In this document: positions 1-7,717 of the stretch, one piece after another
Layout of the letters: every line of letters begins with the position of its first letter
Position numbering within the stretch: position 1 is the first letter of the stretch
Source of the DNA: a virus
Length of the DNA: 41,011 nucleotides
Virus record (IMG/VR): IMGVR_UViG_3300035201_000241
Span: 1-41,011 of that record
Direction: 5' to 3' (one strand)
The notes under the pieces: generated by a model
What the model saw: the letters and a program-made list of their open reading frames with translations, nothing else
Told to the model about the DNA's origin: nothing
The model's database searches: none
Made by a program: the position numbers and the translations under genes

Positions 1-56
1 GTATGGTTTGTCGGTCAAATACTATAAAGAACTTTAAGGGCGCGGGATAATAACAA

Positions 57-180
57 GGGGGGTCGTGTAAATTGTCCCTATAGTGTACGGAGCAATCCGA
101 TGCTGAGAACCAGCGAGTCAGGCAATGTAGCGAGCAAATGCCGTGGATAAGACCTGACTCACCAAATCACACACTATGGA
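57..180 (+). promoter_or_regulatory. Structured mRNA leader, copy A (divergent, multi-helix)
   Basis: This lies directly before the gene at 190. A 5' part (57-79) resembles the core of copies B-E: a G-run, a T/A-rich loop, then TTGTCCCT. It is followed by a long closing helix, 78-86 with 171-179 (CTATAGTGT with ACACTATGG, 9 pairs, one G-T). Inside are three helices: CGGA/TCCG with a GCAA tetraloop (88-99), GCTG/CAGC (102-114) and an 8-bp GAGTCAGG/CCTGACTC stem (115-122 with 153-160). The 3' strand of the closing helix reaches the GGAG ribosome site (178-181), so folding could affect translation. The pairings are read directly from the sequence; riboswitch-like function is inference. Confidence 0.55.
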
Positions 181-189
181 GAACATTTT

Positions 190-564
190 ATGGCAGTTCG
201 CAGACGGTCTTCATCCAAGGTCGCAACAACTGTAAATAAAAGTCCTTCTGCTGAGGTTAAGGTCACTAAATACTCAAAACCTATTGAGATTAAGAAAGTG
301 ACTGAAACTCCCACTAAAACCAGACGATTCGCAACAACTCGTCCTGATGAACCAAAGATTTCACTGGAAGAGTATGTAACTGATTTCAAAATCAGAATGC
401 AAATCAACAACTATGAGGTAATGGAATTCCTCGAAGATTGTAAGAAATGGTACAATACTTCTTCTCCTTATGTTGTTAAAGCATTCAACTTCGTGAAAGA
501 CAAAGTTCAAGAGTTTTCAGCAACACCAGTAGAGAAGAAGGAAGAGGATAAACCAGCAGAATAA
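190..564 (+). CDS. Hypothetical basic/acidic protein, 124 aa
   Basis: I do not recognise a family. The N-terminus is strongly basic and Ser/Thr-rich (residues 1-50, with RRR at 4-6). The middle (about 55-105) looks helical and the last 15 residues are Glu/Lys-rich. There is no signal peptide or membrane segment. The start is supported by GGAGAA at 178-183, 6 nt before the ATG. The gene is monocistronic: leader A precedes it and an intrinsic terminator begins 8 nt after the stop. The charged N-terminus could contact nucleic acid, but this is only an inference from composition. Confidence 0.75.
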   Translation: MAVRRRSSSKVATTVNKSPSAEVKVTKYSKPIEIKKVTETPTKTRRFATTRPDEPKISLEEYVTDFKIRMQINNYEVMEFLEDCKKWYNTSSPYVVKAFNFVKDKVQEFSATPVEKKEEDKPAE

Positions 565-572
565 CTGTCACA

Positions 573-600
573 AGGAGGGGTCAAACCCTCCTATTTTTTT
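573..600 (+). terminator. Intrinsic terminator after the 190-564 gene
   Basis: A 7-bp perfect stem AGGAGGG (573-579) / CCCTCCT (586-592) has a 6-nt loop and is followed by A and seven T residues (593-600). It ends the transcript of the first gene. The next gene starts only 14 nt after the T-run. Confidence 0.85.
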
Positions 601-614
601 GTTATGATACTACT

Positions 615-1523
615 ATGAAAAACACTCACATCGAACATCCAGAAGACTCCATTCTCACAGGCGATTTAAGTGTATTAGATTGGTTCTGTGCTGATGGTAA
701 CATATCAGTCAAAATTGATGGTGCTCCAGCAATAGTTTGGGGACGTAATCCTGCGACTGGTAATCAATTTGTAGGCACTAAATCTGTCTTCAATAAAAAG
801 TTAATTAAGATCAATGAATCCCATGAGGATATTGATAAGAATCACAGTGGAAATGTAGCAGAGATATTACATGAGTGTTGGGATTATCTTCCTGATACTG
901 ATAACATCTATCAAGGTGATTTTATTGGTGTTGGTGGTGATAATTGTTATAGACCTAACACCATAACATATGTTTTTGATGAAATAATACCGCATGAGAT
1001 TATAATAGCACCTCATACAACATACGAAGCTAAAGAAGATTTAAGAGATGCAATTGCAAGACCAATAACAGATAGAGAGATACTTTCTCTATGGGAAGAA
1101 GATTGTGATGTGCTATTCTTGAGACCATTTGTTACACTTAAGGAGCACAGAGATGATATGAATGATCTCTGTAATTTTGCTGCTCAAATGTCAACATTAT
1201 GCACATTCGTGAATGAAAGACAAGCAACACACTTAAAAAAGGTGTTAAACTCTTACATTAGAGATGGAAGACAAGTTGATGAGGAAGAGATAGCATTACA
1301 GCACGACGTTGATATTAACCTGATACGATTGTGGAAGTTAGTTGAATCAATCAAAATGGACATGTTTTGTTACATTGAGACAGATGATTCCGTGAAATGT
1401 ATCATCGAAGGTCATGAAGTTGACCATGAAGGTTATGTTATAGAAAATGGGTTTGGTACATTTAAGATGGTAGATAGAGAAACATTTTCTTACCATAACT
1501 TTAACCTAGCAAAGAGTTGGTAA
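615..1523 (+). CDS. Predicted polynucleotide ligase / nucleotidyltransferase-like protein
   Basis: This 302-aa protein carries signatures of the covalent nucleotidyltransferase (DNA/RNA ligase) superfamily: motif I VKIDG with candidate nucleophile Lys33, GTKSVFNKK (54-62), a motif III-like QGDF (100-103), motif IV EGYV (272-275) and motif V-like KMVD (284-287). Enzymes of this superfamily form a lysyl-AMP or -GMP intermediate. Similar proteins are widespread in T4-like cyanophages as conserved hypotheticals (I recall the label DUF6267). Substrate and activity are unknown. No clear Shine-Dalgarno sequence precedes the ATG, which lies 14 nt after a terminator T-run. Leader copy B begins right at its stop codon. 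The family call is an inference from motif order and spacing. Confidence 0.75.
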   Translation: MKNTHIEHPEDSILTGDLSVLDWFCADGNISVKIDGAPAIVWGRNPATGNQFVGTKSVFNKKLIKINESHEDIDKNHSGNVAEILHECWDYLPDTDNIYQGDFIGVGGDNCYRPNTITYVFDEIIPHEIIIAPHTTYEAKEDLRDAIARPITDREILSLWEEDCDVLFLRPFVTLKEHRDDMNDLCNFAAQMSTLCTFVNERQATHLKKVLNSYIRDGRQVDEEEIALQHDVDINLIRLWKLVESIKMDMFCYIETDDSVKCIIEGHEVDHEGYVIENGFGTFKMVDRETFSYHNFNLAKSW

Positions 1524-1603
1524 GGGGGTACGCTTAAAGTGTCCTACTAGTGAGAGACAAACCAGGCATCAATCGTGTAAGTCCTGTTTTTGTCTCTCCC
1601 ACT
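1522..1603 (+). promoter_or_regulatory. Structured leader element, copy B
   Basis: The core at 1524-1544 forms helix 1: GG(T)ACGC pairs with GTGTCC around a TTAAA loop with one bulged T, extended below by AGGG against TACT. Helix 2 follows at once: AGT (1549-1551) with ACT (1601-1603), then GAGAGACAAA (1552-1561) with TTTGTCTCTC (1589-1598), enclosing CAGG/CCTG (163-66 and 83-86 of the 1500s). The element starts at the TAA of the ligase-like gene and ends 19 nt before the next ATG. A GGAGG ribosome site (1612-1616) lies outside the fold. Confidence 0.65.
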
Positions 1604-1622
1604 CAATTCTTGGAGGCATTTA

Positions 1623-2009
1623 ATGACAACAAAGGTCAAAAAGAAACTAACAGTGGAGGATGTAATTCATCCAGTTGAGTTAACTTATCAACGTTCAATC
1701 CCTGAAATGGTATTAGATTGGACAAATGAGTTAGTATTAAGATTGCAAGCAGATTACGATCGACAGTATAAAGAAAACTCAAATCCTTGCAAGTTTTCTA
1801 TCACTAGCGGTCGCAAATATCATAAAATTCTTGATAGAAAAGGATCTGTACATGCTTTCGTTAATAAACAAACTGGAGAACTATATAAACCCGCTAGTTG
1901 GAATGCACCTGCCAAGCATGTTAGATATGATTTGAGACGAATTAAGCAGCGTCATGAATGTTTTAACAATGCAGATTGGGCAGGAAGTTATCTTTACCTA
2001 AGAGGTTAA
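1623..2009 (+). CDS. Conserved hypothetical cyanophage protein, 128 aa
   Basis: The ATG at 1623 is chosen over upstream non-ATG codons because GGAGG lies 6 nt before it and helix 2 of leader B occupies the DNA upstream. The protein is basic, with a C-terminal segment rich in Tyr, Lys and Arg (VRYDLRRIKQRHECF). It contains GSVHAFVNKQTGELYKPASW, a compact beta motif I remember from small cyanomyovirus proteins of unknown function. It is the first gene of an operon running to 2889. There is no membrane segment or known catalytic motif. Confidence 0.75.
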   Translation: MTTKVKKKLTVEDVIHPVELTYQRSIPEMVLDWTNELVLRLQADYDRQYKENSNPCKFSITSGRKYHKILDRKGSVHAFVNKQTGELYKPASWNAPAKHVRYDLRRIKQRHECFNNADWAGSYLYLRG

Positions 2010-2011
2010 TT

Positions 2012-2155
2012 ATGCTTTGGGAAATCAAACTTTACGTTGCAGGTAAAGTCTTCAACGAAAAAGTTCATGCAGTTGATAGAAACAATGCTATCGATACTGC
2101 AAAGGCACGTAATCCTCATGCCAAGGTAATTGGCGCAAACCCAGTATTCAAATGA
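2012..2155 (+). CDS. Small conserved hypothetical protein, 47 aa
   Basis: The frame begins 2 nt after the previous stop and ends in an ATGA overlap with the next start (2152). The predicted sequence is beta-alpha-beta like: LWEIKLYVAGKVFNEKVHA, then DRNNAIDTAKARNPHAKVIG. The pattern of a short beta hairpin followed by a helix ending in ARNPxAKV recurs in small cyanophage proteins, as far as I remember. No function is known. Translational coupling on both sides supports a real gene. Confidence 0.7.
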   Translation: MLWEIKLYVAGKVFNEKVHAVDRNNAIDTAKARNPHAKVIGANPVFK

Positions 2156-2355
2156 AAACACAATTCATGCCACCTCAAACATACTTTAGTAACGTCAATC
2201 GTTACACAAGAGCAGGAAGAAATGGCAAGGATATATTATGCCCTGAGTGTAGAACTTGGGGCACTGTTTATCATTTTGCATGGAGTGCATTAGGTTGTAC
2301 TCATTGTAATGAAATGATAGATAAAGAGGATTGGTTAGTTGAAAAGAATGTCTAA
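2152..2355 (+). CDS. Zinc-ribbon-like small protein, 67 aa
   Basis: Two CxxC knuckles, Cys30-Cys33 (CPEC) and Cys49-Cys52 (CTHC), are separated by 15 residues containing VYHFAWSAL. This is the layout of a zinc ribbon, so a structural Zn site is likely. Such domains often bind nucleic acid or protein, but no target can be deduced here. The gene overlaps the previous one by 4 nt (ATGA) and the next by 8 nt, so it is translated as part of the operon. Confidence 0.75.
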   Translation: MKTQFMPPQTYFSNVNRYTRAGRNGKDILCPECRTWGTVYHFAWSALGCTHCNEMIDKEDWLVEKNV

Positions 2356-2497
2356 CAAAAAGGAACCAAAAGTTAAACTCTCCTTCGACGGTTGTTATAA
2401 CTATGACCGTCTAAAGAAGGAGGGTTTAATTAATGCTGAAGAGGAAAAAGATAAGAAAGAATATACACCTGAAAACGACCCATTTGGAGGATATTAA
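2348..2497 (+). CDS. Small hypothetical acidic/lysine-rich protein, 49 aa
   Basis: The start overlaps the end of the zinc-ribbon gene by 8 nt, and the stop abuts the next ATG (TAAATG at 2495). It has a short beta segment (KVKLSFDGCYNYDRLKKEG), a charged Glu/Lys stretch and an ENDPFGGY tail. No family is recognised. Coupled spacing on both sides is the main evidence for coding. Confidence 0.65.
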   Translation: MSNKKEPKVKLSFDGCYNYDRLKKEGLINAEEEKDKKEYTPENDPFGGY

Positions 2498-2794
2498 ATG
2501 AACATTATCGAAAACATTCGCACCTTCTTTGTTAATATCCTTGAATGGATTAAGGGAGCATTTAGTATAGCTCCAGCAGAGATTATAGACCCTGAAGTAG
2601 CATTTCTTGAGAAATTAGATACAAAAGGTTACACTTTTGATGAAGAAAAGAATTGGTATGTAAGAACATGGACAACAAATAATGGTAAGGAAAGTTGTCT
2701 CGAAGTCTATCAAAAAGACGAGGAAAGTAACTGGAAAGTCATAATGTATGGGACTGAAGGTGATATTTTCTATGAACATCCTGTGGAGATATGA
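2498..2794 (+). CDS. Hypothetical protein, 98 aa
   Basis: The start directly follows the previous stop and is preceded by GGAGG (2486-2490). An amphipathic N-terminal helix (IRTFFVNILEWIKGAF, 8-23) could associate with membrane. The C-terminal 60 residues look like an antiparallel sheet with repeated aromatic residues (YTFDEEKNWYVRTW, SNWKVIMYG). No family is recognised. It overlaps the downstream micro-gene by 4 nt. Confidence 0.7.
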   Translation: MNIIENIRTFFVNILEWIKGAFSIAPAEIIDPEVAFLEKLDTKGYTFDEEKNWYVRTWTTNNGKESCLEVYQKDEESNWKVIMYGTEGDIFYEHPVEI

Positions 2795-2889
2795 AGAACA
2801 CAAATACCCTAGGAATGTTCCTGATGACTATACTAACTCAGGTCTCATTTGTTGGACTATGTGTTATTTTGTGTTTATTGCTTGTCTGA
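2791..2889 (+). CDS. Membrane micropeptide, 32 aa
   Basis: The ATGA overlap (2791-2794) couples this frame to the preceding gene. After a short polar N-terminus, residues 8-32 are almost wholly hydrophobic (GMFLMTILTQ then VSFVGLCVILCLLLV), which is one transmembrane helix. It ends the operon 6 nt before leader copy C. Phage micropeptides of this type can act on host membranes, but no function is shown here. Confidence 0.5.
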   Translation: MKNTNTLGMFLMTILTQVSFVGLCVILCLLLV

Positions 2890-2894
2890 CTAGA

Positions 2895-2992
2895 AGGGGG
2901 TACGCTTAAAGTGTCCTCCTAGTGAAGGGAGGGAAATTCCTGAAACAGGTAGTCCCGTCAAGTTCTTAACAGCGATGTTATGCTCCCTCACT
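2895..2992 (+). promoter_or_regulatory. Structured leader element, copy C
   Basis: The core at 2896-2916 is identical to copies B, D and E. The lower part of helix 1 pairs AGGG with TCCT. Helix 2 pairs AGTGA (2921-2925) with TCACT (2988-2992) and GGGAG (2927-2931) with CTCCC (2983-2987), with A2926 bulged. Within it CCTG-AAA-CAGG (2939-2949) forms a small hairpin. It starts 6 nt after the upstream stop and ends 21 nt before the next ATG. Confidence 0.65.
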
Positions 2993-3013
2993 CAAATTTC
3001 AATCGTTTTAATT

Positions 3014-3166
3014 ATGTCAACTCTTCAAAATGAAGTCCTATTAGAAACAATCTATGAGGAAGTTTTGGAAGAGTTATCATCAAAGAACTTTCATTTGTTA
3101 TTCTCTGAGTCTGAAATTAATGAGATGGCAGAGAAACTAACCATCGAAAGATTCTGGGACAGATAA
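3014..3166 (+). CDS. Small hypothetical protein, 50 aa
   Basis: This is the first gene after leader C. The ATG at 3014 is preferred because upstream codons of the frame lie inside helix 2. It is predicted to be all-helical and acidic (LETIYEEVLEELSS, ESEINEMAEKLTIERFWDR). It shares its size and a terminal pattern of a helix ending in FW with the next gene (PAFWEYN), so the two may be diverged paralogues. No Shine-Dalgarno sequence is evident and no function is assigned. Confidence 0.65.
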   Translation: MSTLQNEVLLETIYEEVLEELSSKNFHLLFSESEINEMAEKLTIERFWDR

Positions 3167-3203
3167 CACAAACCAAGTAAACTTCATTCATTATTTTTCT
3201 ATT

Positions 3204-3371
3204 ATGTCACAAACACTTCGTTCACTAACTATCACCGAACAAGAAGAAACTGCACTCGTTGAAATGATTAAATTCTTCAACGATATGGGTCTTCCCGATG
3301 ATATCAATTCCACAGATTATGACACACTATGTGAGAAAGTCTGTGAACCAGCATTCTGGGAGTATAACTAA
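3204..3371 (+). CDS. Small hypothetical protein, 55 aa
   Basis: This is an acidic, helical protein (TITEQEETALVEMIKFFNDM) with a C-terminal DTLCEKVCEPAFWEYN. The end resembles that of the gene at 3014 in layout. An intrinsic terminator overlaps its last codons (3358-3385), which argues that the frame really ends here. No family is recognised. Confidence 0.65.
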   Translation: MSQTLRSLTITEQEETALVEMIKFFNDMGLPDDINSTDYDTLCEKVCEPAFWEYN

Positions 3372-3385
3372 CTCCCATTTTTATT
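3358..3385 (+). terminator. Intrinsic terminator overlapping the stop of the 3204 gene
   Basis: GGGAGT (3358-3363) pairs with ACTCCC (3371-3376) across a 7-nt loop, followed by ATTTTTATT. The stem is short, so termination may be partial. Confidence 0.6.
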
Positions 3386-3409
3386 ATTCACTTTATTGAG
3401 GTTATTACC

Positions 3410-3568
3410 ATGACTACATTCACAATCAACAACAAGGAATATACACATAATGAGTTAAATCTTATGTGGGATTTCTTCACTCAAGACCAATGGGATTCTA
3501 TCCTAAGTGATATTAAAGATCCTGAGATTGTGTCCACTATTCAACAACTATGGAGGGCAAGTTACTAA
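3410..3568 (+). CDS. Small hypothetical protein, 52 aa
   Basis: The ATG follows TTGAGGTTATTACC, which contains a GAGG ribosome site about 9 nt upstream. The protein is short and tryptophan-rich (Trp20, Trp28, Trp48) with a helical C-terminus. Its stop TAATG overlaps the start of the next gene by one base. No family is recognised. It opens a coupled run of genes to about 4147. Confidence 0.65.
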   Translation: MTTFTINNKEYTHNELNLMWDFFTQDQWDSILSDIKDPEIVSTIQQLWRASY

Positions 3569-3744
3569 TGAAATTAACACTAAATCAATCTGAGTTTATT
3601 GTACTTAAGGGAATTATTGATGACCGATTAAATTCACTTAAGGAGACAATTACAAAGCACAGTGATAATTTAGATGAGTATGAACGTGATATCAAGAACT
3701 ATACAACTTATGATCTTCATGTTAAACTATCTGAGGTACAATGA
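3568..3744 (+). CDS. Small helical hypothetical protein, 58 aa
   Basis: ATG3568 overlaps the previous stop (TAATG), which is why it is chosen over upstream codons of the frame; TGGAGGG lies about 14 nt upstream. The sequence is one long predicted helix or helical hairpin (FIVLKGIIDDRLNSLKETI, then KHSDNLDEYERDIKNY), possibly a coiled coil. It overlaps the next gene by 4 nt. No function is assigned. Confidence 0.7.
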   Translation: MKLTLNQSEFIVLKGIIDDRLNSLKETITKHSDNLDEYERDIKNYTTYDLHVKLSEVQ

Positions 3745-3887
3745 TGAATTTACTAGACAAATTGTATGCCTACATTATGAATCATTTTTTACCTAAAGAT
3801 GATTTTGACCCTGATAAAGTAACATGCACATTAGACGATCATCCAGTAGATTGTAACACTTGGGAGGAAACTAATTATGGAAACTAA
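3741..3887 (+). CDS. Small hypothetical protein, 48 aa
   Basis: ATGATG at 3741 overlaps the previous TGA, and the frame also overlaps the next gene by 11 nt. The N-terminal half is a mildly hydrophobic helix (LLDKLYAYIMNHFL) and the C-terminal half is acidic with two Cys (VTCTLDDHPVDC). No known domain. The support is translational coupling rather than similarity. Confidence 0.55.
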   Translation: MMNLLDKLYAYIMNHFLPKDDFDPDKVTCTLDDHPVDCNTWEETNYGN

Positions 3888-4059
3888 AGAATGGAACTTA
3901 CAAACAAGAGGACAATTAGTTGAGGATTTATATTATACTTGTAGGCAAGATGGTGAGATATTAGAAGAATTATTAGATGAGTATGTATATCTTTTGAAAG
4001 ATAATCCTGATAGGTTAAATGTACTTAAGGGATATACTGATGAAACATTAGGTGAATGA
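3877..4059 (+). CDS. Small acidic helical protein, 60 aa
   Basis: GGGAGG (3862-3867) lies about 9 nt upstream of the ATG. The product is acidic and helical (GQLVEDLYYTCRQDGEILEELLDEYVYLL). It contains NVLKGYTDE, and the DNA GTACTTAAGGGA also occurs in the 3568 gene (VLKGIIDD), perhaps from local duplication. No family is recognised. Confidence 0.65.
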   Translation: METKEWNLQTRGQLVEDLYYTCRQDGEILEELLDEYVYLLKDNPDRLNVLKGYTDETLGE

Positions 4060-4060
4060 A

Positions 4061-4147
4061 TTGAACAAATATCAGTTTACATTATTATTCATTCAAGGGC
4101 TATTTCTTGTAATGATTTTAAACATAGTACAAAACGGTGGCATGTAA
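4061..4147 (+). CDS. Possible TTG-start membrane micropeptide, 28 aa
   Basis: A TTG at 4061, 7 nt after AGGTG, opens 28 codons ending in TAA inside the terminator stem. The core is hydrophobic (FTLLFIQGLFLVMILNIV), one membrane helix, like the micropeptides at 2791 and 5725. The non-ATG start and the short length keep confidence low. Confidence 0.3.
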   Translation: MNKYQFTLLFIQGLFLVMILNIVQNGGM

Positions 4148-4177
4148 TCAACATAGATAATGTGCCACCATTTTTAT
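4136..4177 (+). terminator. Probable intrinsic terminator
   Basis: GGTGGCAT (4136-4143) pairs with GTGCCACC (4162-4169), one G-T, around an 18-nt loop, followed by ATTTTTATT. It closes the 3410-4147 operon just before the gene at 4186. The large loop makes it weaker than the others. Confidence 0.6.
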
Positions 4178-4185
4178 TATCCATC

Positions 4186-4437
4186 ATGACTAATTTCATC
4201 AAACTGGATATAAACGAACACCTGCAAAGTAAGTATCCTAATTTACCATCAGACCAAATAGATTTAATTGCTGAAGATGTATCAAGGCGATGGGATTACA
4301 GGGAATTAATTGATAGTGTAGATTTCAAATGTAAGCAAACAGCATATTATGCAAATATTGAATTAGGGGAGGAAAGTTATAATGAAGGTATAGGAATTAA
4401 ATATGAACCAATGGAGCACAGTTCTGAAGGGTGTTAA
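4186..4437 (+). CDS. Hypothetical protein, 83 aa
   Basis: ATG4186 is chosen because upstream codons of the frame fall in the terminator hairpin. The product is mixed helical (LQSKYPNLPSDQIDLIAEDV) with RRWDYRELID, then a strand-rich part. The tail GIKYEPMEHSSEGC may be disordered. It ends 6 nt before leader copy D. No family is recognised. Confidence 0.65.
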   Translation: MTNFIKLDINEHLQSKYPNLPSDQIDLIAEDVSRRWDYRELIDSVDFKCKQTAYYANIELGEESYNEGIGIKYEPMEHSSEGC

Positions 4438-4442
4438 TAGGA

Positions 4443-4503
4443 AGGGGGTACGCTTAAAGTGTCCTTCTAGTGAGGGGGTACACAAGGGCAGTTGCCTCCT
4501 CAC
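4443..4503 (+). promoter_or_regulatory. Structured leader element, copy D
   Basis: The core at 4444-4464 is identical to B, C and E. Lower helix 1 pairs AGGG with TTCT. Helix 2 is a continuous 9-bp stem, GTGAGGGGG (4470-4478) with CCTCCTCAC (4495-4503, one G-T), and a 16-nt loop. It starts 6 nt after the upstream stop and ends 21 nt before the next ATG, the same distance as in copy C. Confidence 0.65.
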
Positions 4504-4524
4504 AGTTCTAAACCAAGACTCATT

Positions 4525-4857
4525 ATGAGAAAGATTGAAACCCAAATGAATTCCGCCATCCGTTCCCGTCGCGACTGGCATTCAGGAAACACAAGGGTTG
4601 AAATCACTGAAGACCAGACAGCAATTGTTTATCTTCACGGCAACAAAATTGCTGAGATTGATGAAACAAATGTTCGCCTATTTGATGGCGGTGGTTATCA
4701 AACAGTGACCACAAAATCAAGACTCAATGCTATATGCTATGAGTTCTTATCTCCTTTCTTTGGTGTATTTCAAAAGAACTGGAATTGGTTTGTTAATGTT
4801 CAACTTGACCGCACAAATCCAGTCCCATTCTATTCAGGTATCGCACTCGATGTGTGA
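4525..4857 (+). CDS. Conserved hypothetical phage protein, 110 aa
   Basis: ATG4525 lies 21 nt after leader D. The protein has the pattern SGNTRVEITED, then LHGNKIAEID, then LFDGGGYQTVTTKSRLNAI, which I remember as recurring in small phage and cyanobacterial proteins of unknown function (SGNTxV ... LHGNxIA ... TTKxRLN). It is probably a single beta-rich fold. There is no signal peptide. A terminator overlaps its 3' end, making it a single-gene unit. Role unknown. Confidence 0.8.
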   Translation: MRKIETQMNSAIRSRRDWHSGNTRVEITEDQTAIVYLHGNKIAEIDETNVRLFDGGGYQTVTTKSRLNAICYEFLSPFFGVFQKNWNWFVNVQLDRTNPVPFYSGIALDV

Positions 4858-4867
4858 TACCTTTTTT
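4837..4867 (+). terminator. Intrinsic terminator overlapping the 3' end of the 4525 gene
   Basis: GGTATCGCA (4837-4845) pairs with TGTGATACC (4853-4861), 9 pairs with one G-T, loop of 7, then six T residues. The right arm includes the TGA stop codon of the gene. Confidence 0.85.
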
Positions 4868-4890
4868 ATTACTTAATCAACAAATTTACT

Positions 4891-5061
4891 ATGAAAAACT
4901 TATTTACTATTGGTCTAATTTTCGTTTCAATGTTAATTACTAGTTGTGCGACTAATGTAAAAGAACCCAAAGGAAGTTCAACAACTGAAGCACAACAAGC
5001 ATGGGATAATTTGCCTATTGATAGTACAACTGATGAAGAGTTTTTTAACTCCACTAATTAA
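4891..5061 (+). CDS. Small phage lipoprotein, 56 aa
   Basis: The N-terminus is a lipoprotein signal peptide: Lys2, a hydrophobic stretch FTIGLIFVSML (5-15) and lipobox ITSC with Cys19 as the lipidation site. Position +2 is Ala, not Asp, which by the enterobacterial Lol rule favours the outer membrane. The mature 38 residues are hydrophilic and acidic, ending DEEFFNSTN. Small phage lipoproteins such as T5 Llp block superinfection at the receptor, so this is a candidate exclusion factor by analogy only. It follows the terminator at 4867 and precedes a coupled run of small genes. Confidence 0.75.
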   Translation: MKNLFTIGLIFVSMLITSCATNVKEPKGSSTTEAQQAWDNLPIDSTTDEEFFNSTN

Positions 5062-5066
5062 CAACA

Positions 5067-5237
5067 ATGACCCAAACAAAACCCATCTTCAATAACACAA
5101 TGAACACATCAATTCGTTACTGGTTTCCTGATAATCAACAGTGCAGATATATGTCATTTAAGACATATGAAGAGGCACTAAATGCAATTCGATTGTTATC
5201 ACAAGTTCAAATAAAAGCGGAGGTAAAATGTTACTAA
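5067..5237 (+). CDS. Small hypothetical protein, 56 aa
   Basis: The start is 5 nt after the lipoprotein stop, and the end overlaps the next gene by 10 nt. The sequence reads as beta then helix: TSIRYWFPDNQQCRYMSF followed by KTYEEALNAIRLLSQVQ. This is a small alpha/beta protein with no recognised family. A second in-frame ATG (residue 12) could also be used. Confidence 0.6.
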   Translation: MTQTKPIFNNTMNTSIRYWFPDNQQCRYMSFKTYEEALNAIRLLSQVQIKAEVKCY

Positions 5238-5371
5238 CTAAGGAGGAATATGATGCACTAATTGTTCTTATCTCCCTTGAACAAAATGATATTATTGATG
5301 ATGAAGAAAATGAGTTTTGGAATCAAATAAGACGTAAACTTAGGCATCAAACTTATCAATCTGCACTTTAA
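5228..5371 (+). CDS. Small hypothetical protein, 47 aa
   Basis: GCGGAGG (5217-5223) sits 4-5 nt before the ATG. The product is short and helical (LTKEEYDALIVLISLEQN) with a basic tail (IRRKLRHQTYQ). It overlaps the preceding frame by 10 nt. No family is recognised; a DNA- or protein-binding helix is possible but unsupported. Confidence 0.6.
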   Translation: MLLTKEEYDALIVLISLEQNDIIDDEENEFWNQIRRKLRHQTYQSAL

Positions 5372-5376
5372 CTAAA

Positions 5377-5544
5377 ATGAATCATTATCCCGAAAATGAG
5401 TACCCAAATCTTTATAACGAAATAGTCAAAGATTGGAATTTTCGTTATGGCAAATTCAGTCCAATTCCTTATCCCAATGTAACAAATAAGCAAGAAAAGA
5501 AGTCTGAATTACTACCTAAACCCATTCGCAAATTACCCCAATGA
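5377..5544 (+). CDS. Small hypothetical protein, 55 aa
   Basis: Tyr/Pro/Asn-rich N-terminal half (MNHYPENEYPNLYNEIVKDW) and a basic, proline-containing tail (LLPKPIRKLPQ). It ends in an ATGA overlap with the next gene. It looks partly disordered and no domain is recognised. Coding support is its position in the coupled array and the lack of competing frames. Confidence 0.6.
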   Translation: MNHYPENEYPNLYNEIVKDWNFRYGKFSPIPYPNVTNKQEKKSELLPKPIRKLPQ

Positions 5545-5732
5545 TTGACTACAACTCCCCCAAAATTCTCCAACAACAAGCAACATTAGTATTGGAACAT
5601 GTAGAGGACATTGTTGAACATATATGCGATGAAAATAGACTAAGTGGTGAGAAAGTATGGGTAATGATTAATGCACTAAGTGAAGCAAAAATCAATGAAT
5701 ATCCGTCCCCCGATGATAACGAAGATGATTAA
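5541..5732 (+). CDS. Small acidic helical protein, 63 aa
   Basis: The start overlaps the previous stop (ATGA). The body is helical (ILQQQATLVLEHVEDIVEHI) with LSGEKVWVMINALSEAKI, followed by an acidic tail (SPDDNEDD). It overlaps the downstream membrane micropeptide by 8 nt. No family is recognised. Confidence 0.65.
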   Translation: MIDYNSPKILQQQATLVLEHVEDIVEHICDENRLSGEKVWVMINALSEAKINEYPSPDDNEDD

Positions 5733-5808
5733 CATAATAGCTCTAATGTATGGTTATCTCATCGTAATTAACCAACTATTGTTTCACACTATCCCCCAAA
5801 CATTATGA
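5725..5808 (+). CDS. Membrane micropeptide, 27 aa
   Basis: This frame overlaps its upstream neighbour by 8 nt and its downstream neighbour by an ATGA, so it fills the only gap in the run. Residues 2-20 are hydrophobic (INIIALMYGYLIVINQLLF), one transmembrane helix. The coupling on both sides is the main argument that it is translated. Function unknown. Confidence 0.45.
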   Translation: MINIIALMYGYLIVINQLLFHTIPQTL

Positions 5809-6011
5809 ACACTAATTTTCAACTAAGACAAGCACTTTGTGAGGGTATTCTTGATAATATGGATCCTTCAGAAATGGCACAATTTATATACGACTCATTA
5901 GAATTGTCCTATGATAAGTATTCTGACAATGAGTTAAAAAGCGAGATAGAAGAACAATTAGGAGAGGAACATTTAGCATCAGTTCTTAACACTATTAAGG
6001 AGGAAGTATGA
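5805..6011 (+). CDS. Small helical protein, 68 aa
   Basis: The pattern LRQALCEGILDNMDPSEMAQ, then LELSYDKYSDNELKSEIEEQL is one I associate with a small conserved family in cyanophages (perhaps the one labelled DUF7326). It is acidic and all-helical. It overlaps both neighbours by 4 nt. The family name is from memory and the function is unknown. Confidence 0.65.
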   Translation: MNTNFQLRQALCEGILDNMDPSEMAQFIYDSLELSYDKYSDNELKSEIEEQLGEEHLASVLNTIKEEV

Positions 6012-6358
6012 CAACAAAGTACAATCAATTAGTAGACAATTTGGTAAACTCAATGAAACAATCAACAGACAACATTTACTCAGTTCCTGATAACAATCCA
6101 AGGAAAAGTTTCGATGAATTGTATGAAGAATATAGTAGTAAATCTATCCCAGAACAAGTAAACAATTTAAAGCAATTAGGTCGTAAGTTAGTATCACAAA
6201 TAGATGGAATAGTTGATAAGTTAAATGTTATAATAGAGGATATAGAAGAGGAAGAAAGTAATAATAAGGAGTTTGAAATTACAGTAGACCCATTAACACA
6301 TAAGGTCATATATAACACTGAATTAAATGAATATAAGGTAGTAAGAAGAGAGGACTAA
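6008..6358 (+). CDS. Hypothetical coiled-coil protein, 116 aa
   Basis: AAGGAGG (5998-6004) precedes the ATG and the start overlaps the previous stop. A disordered N-terminal third is followed by a long helix (PEQVNNLKQLGRKLVSQIDG, continuing to IIEDIEEEES, about 50-87) with heptad-like hydrophobic spacing, then a short strand-rich tail (ITVDPLTHKVIYN). It is the last gene of the array before the terminator at 6393. No family is recognised. Confidence 0.7.
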   Translation: MTTKYNQLVDNLVNSMKQSTDNIYSVPDNNPRKSFDELYEEYSSKSIPEQVNNLKQLGRKLVSQIDGIVDKLNVIIEDIEEEESNNKEFEITVDPLTHKVIYNTELNEYKVVRRED

Positions 6359-6392
6359 TTATACCTAACCTGTGGAAAACTATTGTATACTT

Positions 6393-6416
6393 AAGGGGTC
6401 TAATCACCCCTTTTTT
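6393..6416 (+). terminator. Intrinsic terminator closing the small-gene array
   Basis: AAGGGGT (6393-6399) pairs with ACCCCTT (6406-6412), loop CTAATC, in a run of six T residues (6411-6416). It separates the 4891-6358 array from the non-coding region that follows. Confidence 0.85.
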
Positions 6417-6640
6417 AGTATCAATTAATACCAAACATATATTAAAAAGGTTTATAAATGGTCGAATAAATAGCACCCCGTTGTTTATACGTTTTCCACA
6501 AGTATGTTGAAAAGTAGTGTATAATAGGGGAAAAGTATGTGGAATAAGTTGTTAGTAAAGGAGTTATAATTGTACTAGAGAAGGTGATAAGAATGCTCAA
6601 TTATTTGTGTTCTTAAATGTGCTCAGACGTTGTGATCTAA

Positions 6641-6700
6641 GCGAGCGTAGTATAACACAATCGCTCGCAAACTACAAGGGTCTGGGTAACATTTTGTAGT
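6641..6700 (+). repeat. Two adjacent inverted repeats (possible RNA hairpins)
   Basis: GCGAGCG (6641-6647) with CGCTCGC (6662-6668), then ACTACAA (6671-6677) with TTGTAGT (6694-6700). Both are 7 bp and perfect, with 14- and 16-nt loops. TTGTG (6630-6634) can pair with CACAA (6656-6660) in the first loop, giving a pseudoknot-like arrangement. The GC-rich first stem stands out from its AT-rich surroundings. No T-run follows, so these are not terminators. Confidence 0.5.
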
Positions 6701-6768
6701 ATAATACCAAACCAGTTCAGTATAAACTAGAACCGATAGTTTAGGTTCGTTATGTAACACAAATGTAC

Positions 6769-6776
6769 TATAAATA
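6769..6776 (+). promoter_or_regulatory. T4-type late promoter motif TATAAATA
   Basis: An exact match to the T4 late promoter word, 70 nt upstream of the ATG at 6847 and 11 nt upstream of a sigma-70 -35 box. It suggests that the same gene could also be read late. Confidence 0.5.
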
Positions 6777-6787
6777 TCTTACACTAC

Positions 6788-6816
6788 TTGACACTTTTCC
6801 ACAGTTATGTTATAGT
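6788..6816 (+). promoter_or_regulatory. Sigma-70 promoter for the 6847 gene
   Basis: TTGACA (6788-6793), 17-bp spacer, TATAGT (6811-6816). The expected start near 6823 gives a leader of about 24 nt. The spacer contains a TTTTCCACA box found elsewhere in this region. Confidence 0.8.
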
Positions 6817-6846
6817 ACTAACTAACACTCCCAGGGGTCTAATCTC

Positions 6847-7005
6847 ATGCCAGTTTCTAACGCTTACTGTAGTGCTGCTAAGTATAGAATAACACTAGAA
6901 TTAGATGTGCTCGATGACTTTAATCCCCGGCAGATTAACTGGGCAAAAATGTTTGAATTGGCAGAAGATGAGTCCGTAGAGTGTTACATTGAAGAATTAG
7001 ATTAG
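6847..7005 (+). CDS. Small conserved cyanophage protein, 52 aa
   Basis: After MPVSNAYCSAAK comes KYRITLELDVLDDFNPRQIN, then WAKMFELAEDESVECYIEEL, a beta-helix pattern I remember as recurring in small cyanophage proteins. It is transcribed from the consensus promoter at 6788. It is followed 16 nt later by leader copy E. Function unknown; early expression suggests a host-interaction role, but this is inference. Confidence 0.75.
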   Translation: MPVSNAYCSAAKYRITLELDVLDDFNPRQINWAKMFELAEDESVECYIEELD

Positions 7006-7020
7006 GAGTTAGTTATTATA

Positions 7021-7056
7021 AGGGGGTACGCTTAAAGTGTCCCCCTAATGAACACT
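7021..7056 (+). promoter_or_regulatory. Structured leader element, copy E (helix 1 only)
   Basis: The core at 7022-7042 is identical to B-D. Here helix 1 is longest: AGGGGG (7021-7026) with CCCCCT (7041-7046), then bulged T27, then ACGC with GTGT, loop TTAAA, giving 10 pairs. The second closing helix of B-D is missing. Instead AGTGT (7036-7040) could pair with ACACT (7052-7056), an alternative fold that would open helix 1. It ends 15 nt before the next ATG. Confidence 0.6.
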
Positions 7057-7071
7057 CAACACCAGTCAATC

Positions 7072-7182
7072 ATGACCACAGTTTATAACACTGAAGCACT
7101 GCTATTTGCGCTAGAAGATGCACAAACAGGCAGAGAATTGCTAGAGGTTATTGATGCTTTCGTAGCAGAGATTAGCGACTAG
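7072..7182 (+). CDS. Small conserved hypothetical protein, 36 aa
   Basis: The sequence TEALLFALEDAQTGRELLEV followed by IDAFVAEI is a helical hairpin. From memory, short proteins of this type recur in cyanophages and marine picocyanobacteria, so it may be host-related. It lies 15 nt after leader E and before the dyad at 7201. No Shine-Dalgarno sequence is obvious. Confidence 0.65.
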   Translation: MTTVYNTEALLFALEDAQTGRELLEVIDAFVAEISD

Positions 7183-7200: not shown

Positions 7201-7227
7201 TACCCCTTGATTGACACTCAGGGGGTA
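7201..7227. promoter_or_regulatory. Dyad over the -35 region (possible operator)
   Basis: TACCCCTTGA (7201-7210) and TCAGGGGGTA (7218-7227) form a 10-bp inverted repeat with one G-T pair. Its 7-nt centre, TTGACAC, contains the complete -35 box of the promoter at 7211. There is no T-run, so it is not an intrinsic terminator; a repressor or activator site is the simplest reading. Confidence 0.45.
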
Positions 7228-7239
7228 TAATAGTATAAT
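7211..7239 (+). promoter_or_regulatory. Consensus sigma-70 promoter
   Basis: TTGACA (7211-7216), 17-bp spacer, TATAAT (7234-7239): both hexamers match the consensus. An overlapping TATAAT at 7226-7231 has the wrong spacing. Transcription would begin near 7246, giving a leader of about 200 nt before the ATG at 7447, or a small RNA. Confidence 0.85.
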
Positions 7240-7688: not shown

Positions 7689-7717
7689 TTGACACTCTAC
7701 ATATATTAGAGTATAAT
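7689..7717 (+). promoter_or_regulatory. Consensus sigma-70 promoter for the 7740 operon
   Basis: TTGACA (7689-7694), 17-bp spacer, TATAAT (7712-7717). Start near 7724, leader of about 16 nt containing an AAAGGAC ribosome site. It drives the genes at 7740, 8515 and 8681, which end at the terminator at 8834. Confidence 0.85.

Follow-up and report, generated by a model that had tools for sequence, protein, structure and literature searches.

Introduction

Marine T4-like cyanophages run early, middle and late programmes, yet T4 middle promoters, together with motA and/or asiA, are reported to be missing from them (PMC5780444). Repeats tied to gene starts or intergenic regions have been described in other viruses: SAS and ESAS of cluster K mycobacteriophages are short and asymmetric, with 11–19 copies per genome at translation initiation sites (PMC3203893), and repeated intergenic sequences of halovirus HF2 are reported to have been assayed as promoters with a reporter (PMC8707807). 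Here we analyse a repeated element in the small-gene region of IMG/VR virus record IMGVR_UViG_3300035201_000241. The whole 41 kb of this record (41,011 nucleotides (nt), hereafter the window) was covered; it carries T4-like baseplate genes (phrog_219), and its small-gene region has its best DNA match in Synechococcus phage SynMITS9220M01. Judging from sequence signals, the most fitting reading of the repeats is as a cyanophage transcription-start signal, not described before, that stands ahead of many small genes; no description of the motif was found in the literature searched, and a prior one in the Syn9 transcriptome study (Doron 2016) is possible. We consider it probable that the element, which consists of a variable 5' box and a constant 3' core, is a lineage-specific DNA promoter module of T4-like cyanophages. 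As such it is a concrete candidate for a non-host promoter class in phages whose middle-programme control is in question.

The T4 middle promoter (MotA box plus sigma-70 -10) is comparable in that a phage-specific upstream box and a common core precede many non-structural genes, but the present element has neither a MotA box nor a usable -10 geometry, and its box varies by lineage. Like promoters of the T7/SP6 type it places TATA directly before a purine at the predicted +1, whereas its variable box would lie mostly outside a T7-type footprint and no PF00940 polymerase was found in the element-bearing genomes examined. It may also resemble the SP6 promoter in part. SAS and ESAS are likewise short, asymmetric, repeated and tied to gene starts; identity with SAS (the 13-bp GGGATAGGAGCCC) was rejected, since the sequence of our element is different and its distance to the start codon variable, and it would mark an RNA 5' end. 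The HF2 repeats are similar as intergenic repeats carrying promoters (predicted ones in our case), but they belong to a haloarchaeal virus and are unrelated in sequence. To our knowledge no lineage-swapped box occurs among them.

Copies of the element in the window

The 21-mer GGGGGTACGCTTAAAGTGTCC occurs exactly at 1524, 2896, 4444 and 7022, always on the + strand, while 100 shuffles gave no match with up to three mismatches permitted; the copy at 57 has five mismatches to it. Thus, the four identical copies and the divergent relative listed in a preliminary description of this DNA are real. The copies and their leaders are the following, where PWM denotes the position weight matrix of the motif family.

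55..91, + strand: promoter-like element, copy A (divergent); predicted +1 at 83, from PWM membership, alignment and leader folds from 83
83..189, + strand: leader RNA of copy A, before gene 190-564 (phrog_27005); fold z -3.20; unit closed by a terminator at 573-592
1522..1558, + strand: promoter-like element, copy B; predicted +1 at 1550; exact 21-mer, PWM member
1550..1622, + strand: leader RNA of copy B with 5'-terminal hairpin, before gene 1623-2009 (DUF7717, phrog_818); fold z -2.31
2894..2930, + strand: promoter-like element, copy C; predicted +1 at 2922; exact 21-mer
2922..3013, + strand: leader RNA of copy C with 5'-terminal hairpin, before gene 3014-3166; fold z -1.68
4442..4478, + strand: promoter-like element, copy D; predicted +1 at 4470; exact 21-mer
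4470..4524, + strand: leader RNA of copy D with 5'-terminal hairpin, before gene 4525-4857 (Kyano_Gp96, Pfam PF23790); fold z -2.54; terminator at 4836-4862
7020..7056, + strand: promoter-like element, copy E; predicted +1 at 7048, the A of the ATG of open reading frame 7048-7182 (leaderless); exact 21-mer

The copies do divide the small-gene region into separate units, as had been proposed: A and D each consist of element, leader, one gene and intrinsic terminator. The spacing of 15-21 nt to an ATG that had been noted for B–E does not belong to the core itself, the predicted +1 lying 107, 73, 92, 55 and 0 nt from the start codon in A, B, C, D and E. Leaders related to that of copy B are found at four other loci (L071, L174, L115 and L059).

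A constant core behind a lineage-specific box

A degenerate scan of IMG/VR matched at least 119 stretches, and at least 349 non-redundant copies were collected from IMG/VR contigs and cyanophage genomes. The PWM scan of 1.02 Mb returned 356 hits separated by a score gap, none falling between 10 and 19 bits. With positions counted from G0 (the window 21-mer then begins at position -1), the motif is a gapless 37 nt from -3 to +33 (AAGGGGGGWCGYNTAAAGTGTCCYTATAGTRTRAGCA), and conservation ends at both of its edges, except for the upstream stop codon. Synechococcus phage S-SM2 has 12 copies, Marine virus AG-345-O18 has nine, and a 5.7 kb IMG/VR contig whose end is homologous to the window start (L001) has four. 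The copies are restricted to one strand of a 9–17 kb stretch upstream of gp25/gp6, and in S-B05 one of them stands at the head of an operon opposite a divergent late gene. Several other cyanophages scanned lack the motif. What computation shows directly is the motif with its two-part build, its restriction to a single region and strand, and the signals of a 5' end described below.

The two parts behave differently. The 3' core (positions 10-26, TAAAGTGTCCYTATAGT) is constant, while the 11-nt 5' box (positions -1..9, GGGGGTACGCT in the window) is constant inside a phage and differs among lineages, with GGGGGWCGYN, TTACTCACCTC, ACTGAAGCGAG and others, including TTACTCACC. Box identity is 0.864 within contigs and 0.479 between them; the corresponding core values are 0.874 and 0.865, both inflated because the core served as search pattern. 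Scanning IMG/VR with the 3' core and collecting all loci gave at least 85 exact core sites with a GGGG-type box and at least 126 others, the 5' halves of which fall into many lineage-specific types. At orthologous sites before the same genes, SynMITS9220M01 has AATRTTACTCACCYCTAAAGTGTCCCTATAGTRT, that is, a TTACTCACCYC box instead of GGGGG... in front of the same core. Further box variants at regular spacing are present in P-TIM68, whose sites carry AATGTTAGTTACCTCTAAATTGA, and in S-B05.

Several related observations stand apart from this family. S-B05 (MK799832) has two more box-type sites, ATTACTCACCTC, at 156038 and 156966 (+), on the other strand and distant from the main cluster. In Bellamy and P-SSM2, genes of the same region are preceded by a motif that is also bipartite but built differently (AGTGGCACAC ... 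TATATTAAAG or TATAAT), and repeated gene-start motifs of other sequence occur in S-SSM7 (L212, TCACTGCCCTATAATGATAGTATAACAAACA) and S-SKS1 (L211, CTAAGTAACACTTACTCA...CACTAACTAACACTT). Matches to the core pattern in Campylobacterales (L318) and Gracilibacteria (L319), which have neither box nor copy number, were taken as chance.

Predicted position of the RNA 5' end

When the first ATG of a frame of at least 35 codons is located behind each of the 349 copies, it falls at exactly position 27 in 73 cases; five copies have it at 34-41 and 89 at 42-49. Motif-free relatives, the window gene at 615 among them, share N-termini that follow ATG27, such as MKNTH..HPED, so this ATG is very likely a genuine start codon; NNPY is another ATG27 N-terminus shared with relatives. 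In addition, downstream sequence is enriched in reverse complements of the motif segment, but solely for the part that starts at position 25: complementary 7-mers number 11 at position 25 versus 2.1 in swapped controls (0/200) and 6 versus 3.2 at position 24, and the starts of maximal helices peak at position 25 (8 versus 1.5 in controls). Leaders of at least 35 nt, taken from position 25, have a mean fold z of -1.44, with 41/109 below -2 and 0 above 2, and their stems often begin at the first base; in duplex-energy mapping the leader edges are hidden by long interior loops. From the start-codon positions, the helices from 25 and the structured leaders we infer that the RNA 5' end lies at or beside G25, within about 23-27. 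Such an end would account for a second helix, opened by AGTG and closed by a downstream complement, that had been described behind the core. We recovered it in A, B, C and D, whose leaders out-fold their shuffles (z -3.2, -2.3, -1.7 and -2.5), and it would represent the 5' terminus of the transcript.

Proposed initiation and its alternatives

In the mechanism that we favour, the module would combine an 11-bp lineage-specific recognition box (-1..9) with the family-wide constant core (10-26). A lineage-matched phage or host factor would read the box and recruit RNA polymerase, and RNA would begin at about position 25, directly after TATA. The products would be leaderless mRNAs (ATG at 25 or 27) or leaders of at least 17 nt, often with a stem-loop from the first nucleotide, and a single factor would turn on every unit in the small-gene region. 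We infer initiation as the source of the 5' end, and a dedicated factor, from the sharp-edged gapless motif, the lineage-swapped box, the confinement to one strand and the start-codon, helix and leader signals. Initiation is further supported by six copies directly 3' of strong intrinsic terminators, by the S-B05 copy heading an operon opposite a divergent gene, and by copies in host islets that lie away from upstream stop codons, two of the islets having tandem arrays. Several points speak against it, in addition to the inflated core figures. There is no overall enrichment of terminators upstream of elements (6/337 versus 27/984), the motif has no conserved -35, and strong leader helices are found in a minority of copies only. 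A +1 at 25 fits no known polymerase geometry, as TATAGT would fall inside the start site. No trans-acting factor emerged from gene co-occurrence in nine genomes: a PF06114-like protein (T4-GC 70) and T4-GC 89 are common to element-bearing genomes and absent from five element-free ones, and both were rejected as not specific, their labels occurring also in P-SSM2. PF00940 polymerase is absent from four element-bearing cyanophage genomes and the partial AG-345-O18 record, while the positive control P-SSP7 was matched; a T7-type promoter was rejected, since the element-bearing genomes examined encode no single-subunit RNA polymerase. Among other known classes, a T4 late promoter was rejected because its -10 box TATAAATA is absent from the motif profile, and a T4 middle promoter because the consensus has no MotA box; the lack of motA/asiA is here taken from PMC5780444 and no search for these genes was made.

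The main rival to initiation is RNA processing, in which transcripts would read through from upstream and be cut by a phage or host endoribonuclease after UAUA at 24/25, the leader hairpin guarding the new 5' end. The same position-25 signals would be expected, and 290/337 copies lie directly 3' of a same-strand gene. T26 is conserved to 99%, which would match the preference of RNase E for U at +2. However, it would be unusual for an RNase to recognise 25 nt of unstructured sequence of which one half is specific to the lineage. Some copies, moreover, follow terminators or, as in S-B05 and host islets, lack a co-directional gene immediately 5' of them, and we regard processing as unlikely. A sigma-70 promoter with TATAGT as -10, a start near 33 and a MotA-like activator on the box seems more doubtful still. 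TATAGT and TATAAT do resemble a -10 box and the box centre would be near -30, where the MotA box is centred, but a start at 33 would delete the ATG27 of 73 copies, whose N-termini (MKNTH, NNPY) relatives share. Moreover, the window copies read NCTAGT, without A at position 2, the helices start at 25 and not at 33, and cyanophages are reported without motA and/or asiA (PMC5780444). With RNA starting at 25, TATAGT could not serve as the -10 box, and no element copy was among the + strand matches of a sigma-70 scan in which other window sites match 12/12. A sigma-70 promoter, by which we mean -35 and -10 hexamers spaced by 16-18 with a start 6-9 nt behind the latter, is thus disfavoured.

Mycobacteriophage stoperators are asymmetric, co-directional, lineage-specific repeated sites, and by this likeness the element could be an operator or stoperator at which a phage repressor silences the small-gene units while a promoter at some other place drives them; the tandem arrays of the host islets would fit. 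We hold this to be very improbable, as the fixed ATG27 and the helices from 25 link the motif to an RNA 5' end and not to a downstream roadblock, and no separate conserved promoter lies upstream of the motif.

Hardly any weight can be given to the model of the preliminary description, in which the core would act in cis as a structured regulatory RNA with preserved pairing, either like a riboswitch or as a hairpin bound by a protein. In its favour, copies of the GGGG lineage out-fold their shuffles (z -2.49), and the core hairpin is found only in this lineage; in the others z is 0.08. Covariation of the core helix is not demonstrable from the window alone because the four copies are identical, and the pair table of the relatives has none: paired-sequence counts equal the expectation from independent columns (264 observed versus 264.2 for pair 4-18), the biggest excess among hairpin pairs being 250 versus 240.4 for pair 8-14. 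The pairing thus does not exceed chance, and in SynMITS9220M01 the hairpin 5' strand is replaced entirely while the 3' strand is unchanged. A conserved RNA hairpin was rejected on the pair table, the box replacement and the loss of the fold outside GGGG. Searched against Rfam, the window gave no match that reached gathering score and none of relevance at E<5, so that glutamine riboswitch, wcaG, manA and PhotoRC, all suggested as candidates, find no counterpart. Transcripts beginning inside or after the core had been named as evidence that it acts as DNA, and the indirect signals at position 25 indicate a start downstream of the 21-nt core.

Near the end of the small-gene region there are three near-perfect sigma-70 promoters (TTGACA-17-TATAGT or TATAAT), at window 6788-6816, 7211-7239 and 7689-7717, one of them just 5' of gene 7740. 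Given these sigma-70 promoters, the element would add another class of promoter to the window.

For the promoter reading, it matters that the motif occurs in the isolates S-SM2, SynMITS9220M01, S-B05 and P-TIM68 and is thus accessible to 5'-end mapping, and that the constant core with its swappable box is a natural experiment toward the cognate factor.

Copies in host islets

The exact core scan of bacterial genomes matched at least two Prochlorococcus single-cell genomes, and at least three more genomes with the element turned up among 400 searched from that family. In these Prochlorococcus-family islets (L320, L321, L324, L325 and L327) it stands before orphan cargo genes. Two of them have tandem arrays:

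L320, 6313-6160, - strand: three tandem diverged copies before orphan genes, away from stop codons
L321, 6800-6700, - strand: two tandem diverged copies before orphan genes, away from stop codons

The other host islets have GGGG or ACTGGTACC boxes. Every islet has a serine recombinase-like gene, confirmed as PF00239 in 3/3 islets tested, and a gene for a small YxRLTEE-type protein; one lies near tRNA-Cys and another near tRNA-Ser. Cargo proteins gave no convincing family match, the one weak PADLOC match being to Cmr5 (E 0.005), and four more islets that hold the companion gene are without an element in their neighbourhood. It should be noted that single-cell genomes may be chimeric, although tRNA genes are present on two of the contigs and genes that look chromosomal by eye on several. 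In the part of the source consulted, picocyanobacterial integrase islands are described with a small serine recombinase, a position near tRNA-Cys/Phe and a specific tyrosine integrase (PMC10187409). The element-bearing islets are like them in their small serine recombinase and, in one case, the nearby tRNA-Cys, and unlike them in the promoter-like element of phage type, which that part does not mention.

These copies suggest host genes tuned to phage transcription, and point to genes that may sense infection via a phage promoter. Tentatively, mobile islets may keep their orphan cargo behind the lineage-specific promoter of a phage, infection by a box-matched phage inducing a host (defence or satellite) response; phages may in turn diversify the box against eavesdropping or cross-activation. 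We regard this scenario as possible, with the balance somewhat against it.

A structured RNA in the leader of copy A

The riboswitch-like object of this region is an RNA in the leader of copy A, separate from the repeat, and its role as a ligand sensor is putative.

96..172 (core about 99-161), + strand: covarying structured RNA domain in leader A; 14-member family

All 15 modelled pairs hold in 14/14 sequences (100% of cells), four of them with two-sided changes in 15 cells, and the covariation score was reached by 0/500 shuffles. The helices are GSYG/CRSC and GAGYMAGG/CCUKRCUC, the inner loop, GGCAAUGUAGCG ... AUGYCGUGGAUAAG, is nearly invariant, and a GNRA-type hairpin lies on the 5' side. 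Rfam has no match for 96-172. The RNA is usually found 5' of a MATRSRIG-type gene (phrog_1987 for the S-SM2 relative), mostly a short way downstream of an element.

Another leader that recurs, GTGAGGGATANNCGGTTCTACTGCC..., stands behind the element in several phages (L006 23813, L016 9313, L017 2203 and L019 2895), and may likewise be a structured RNA.

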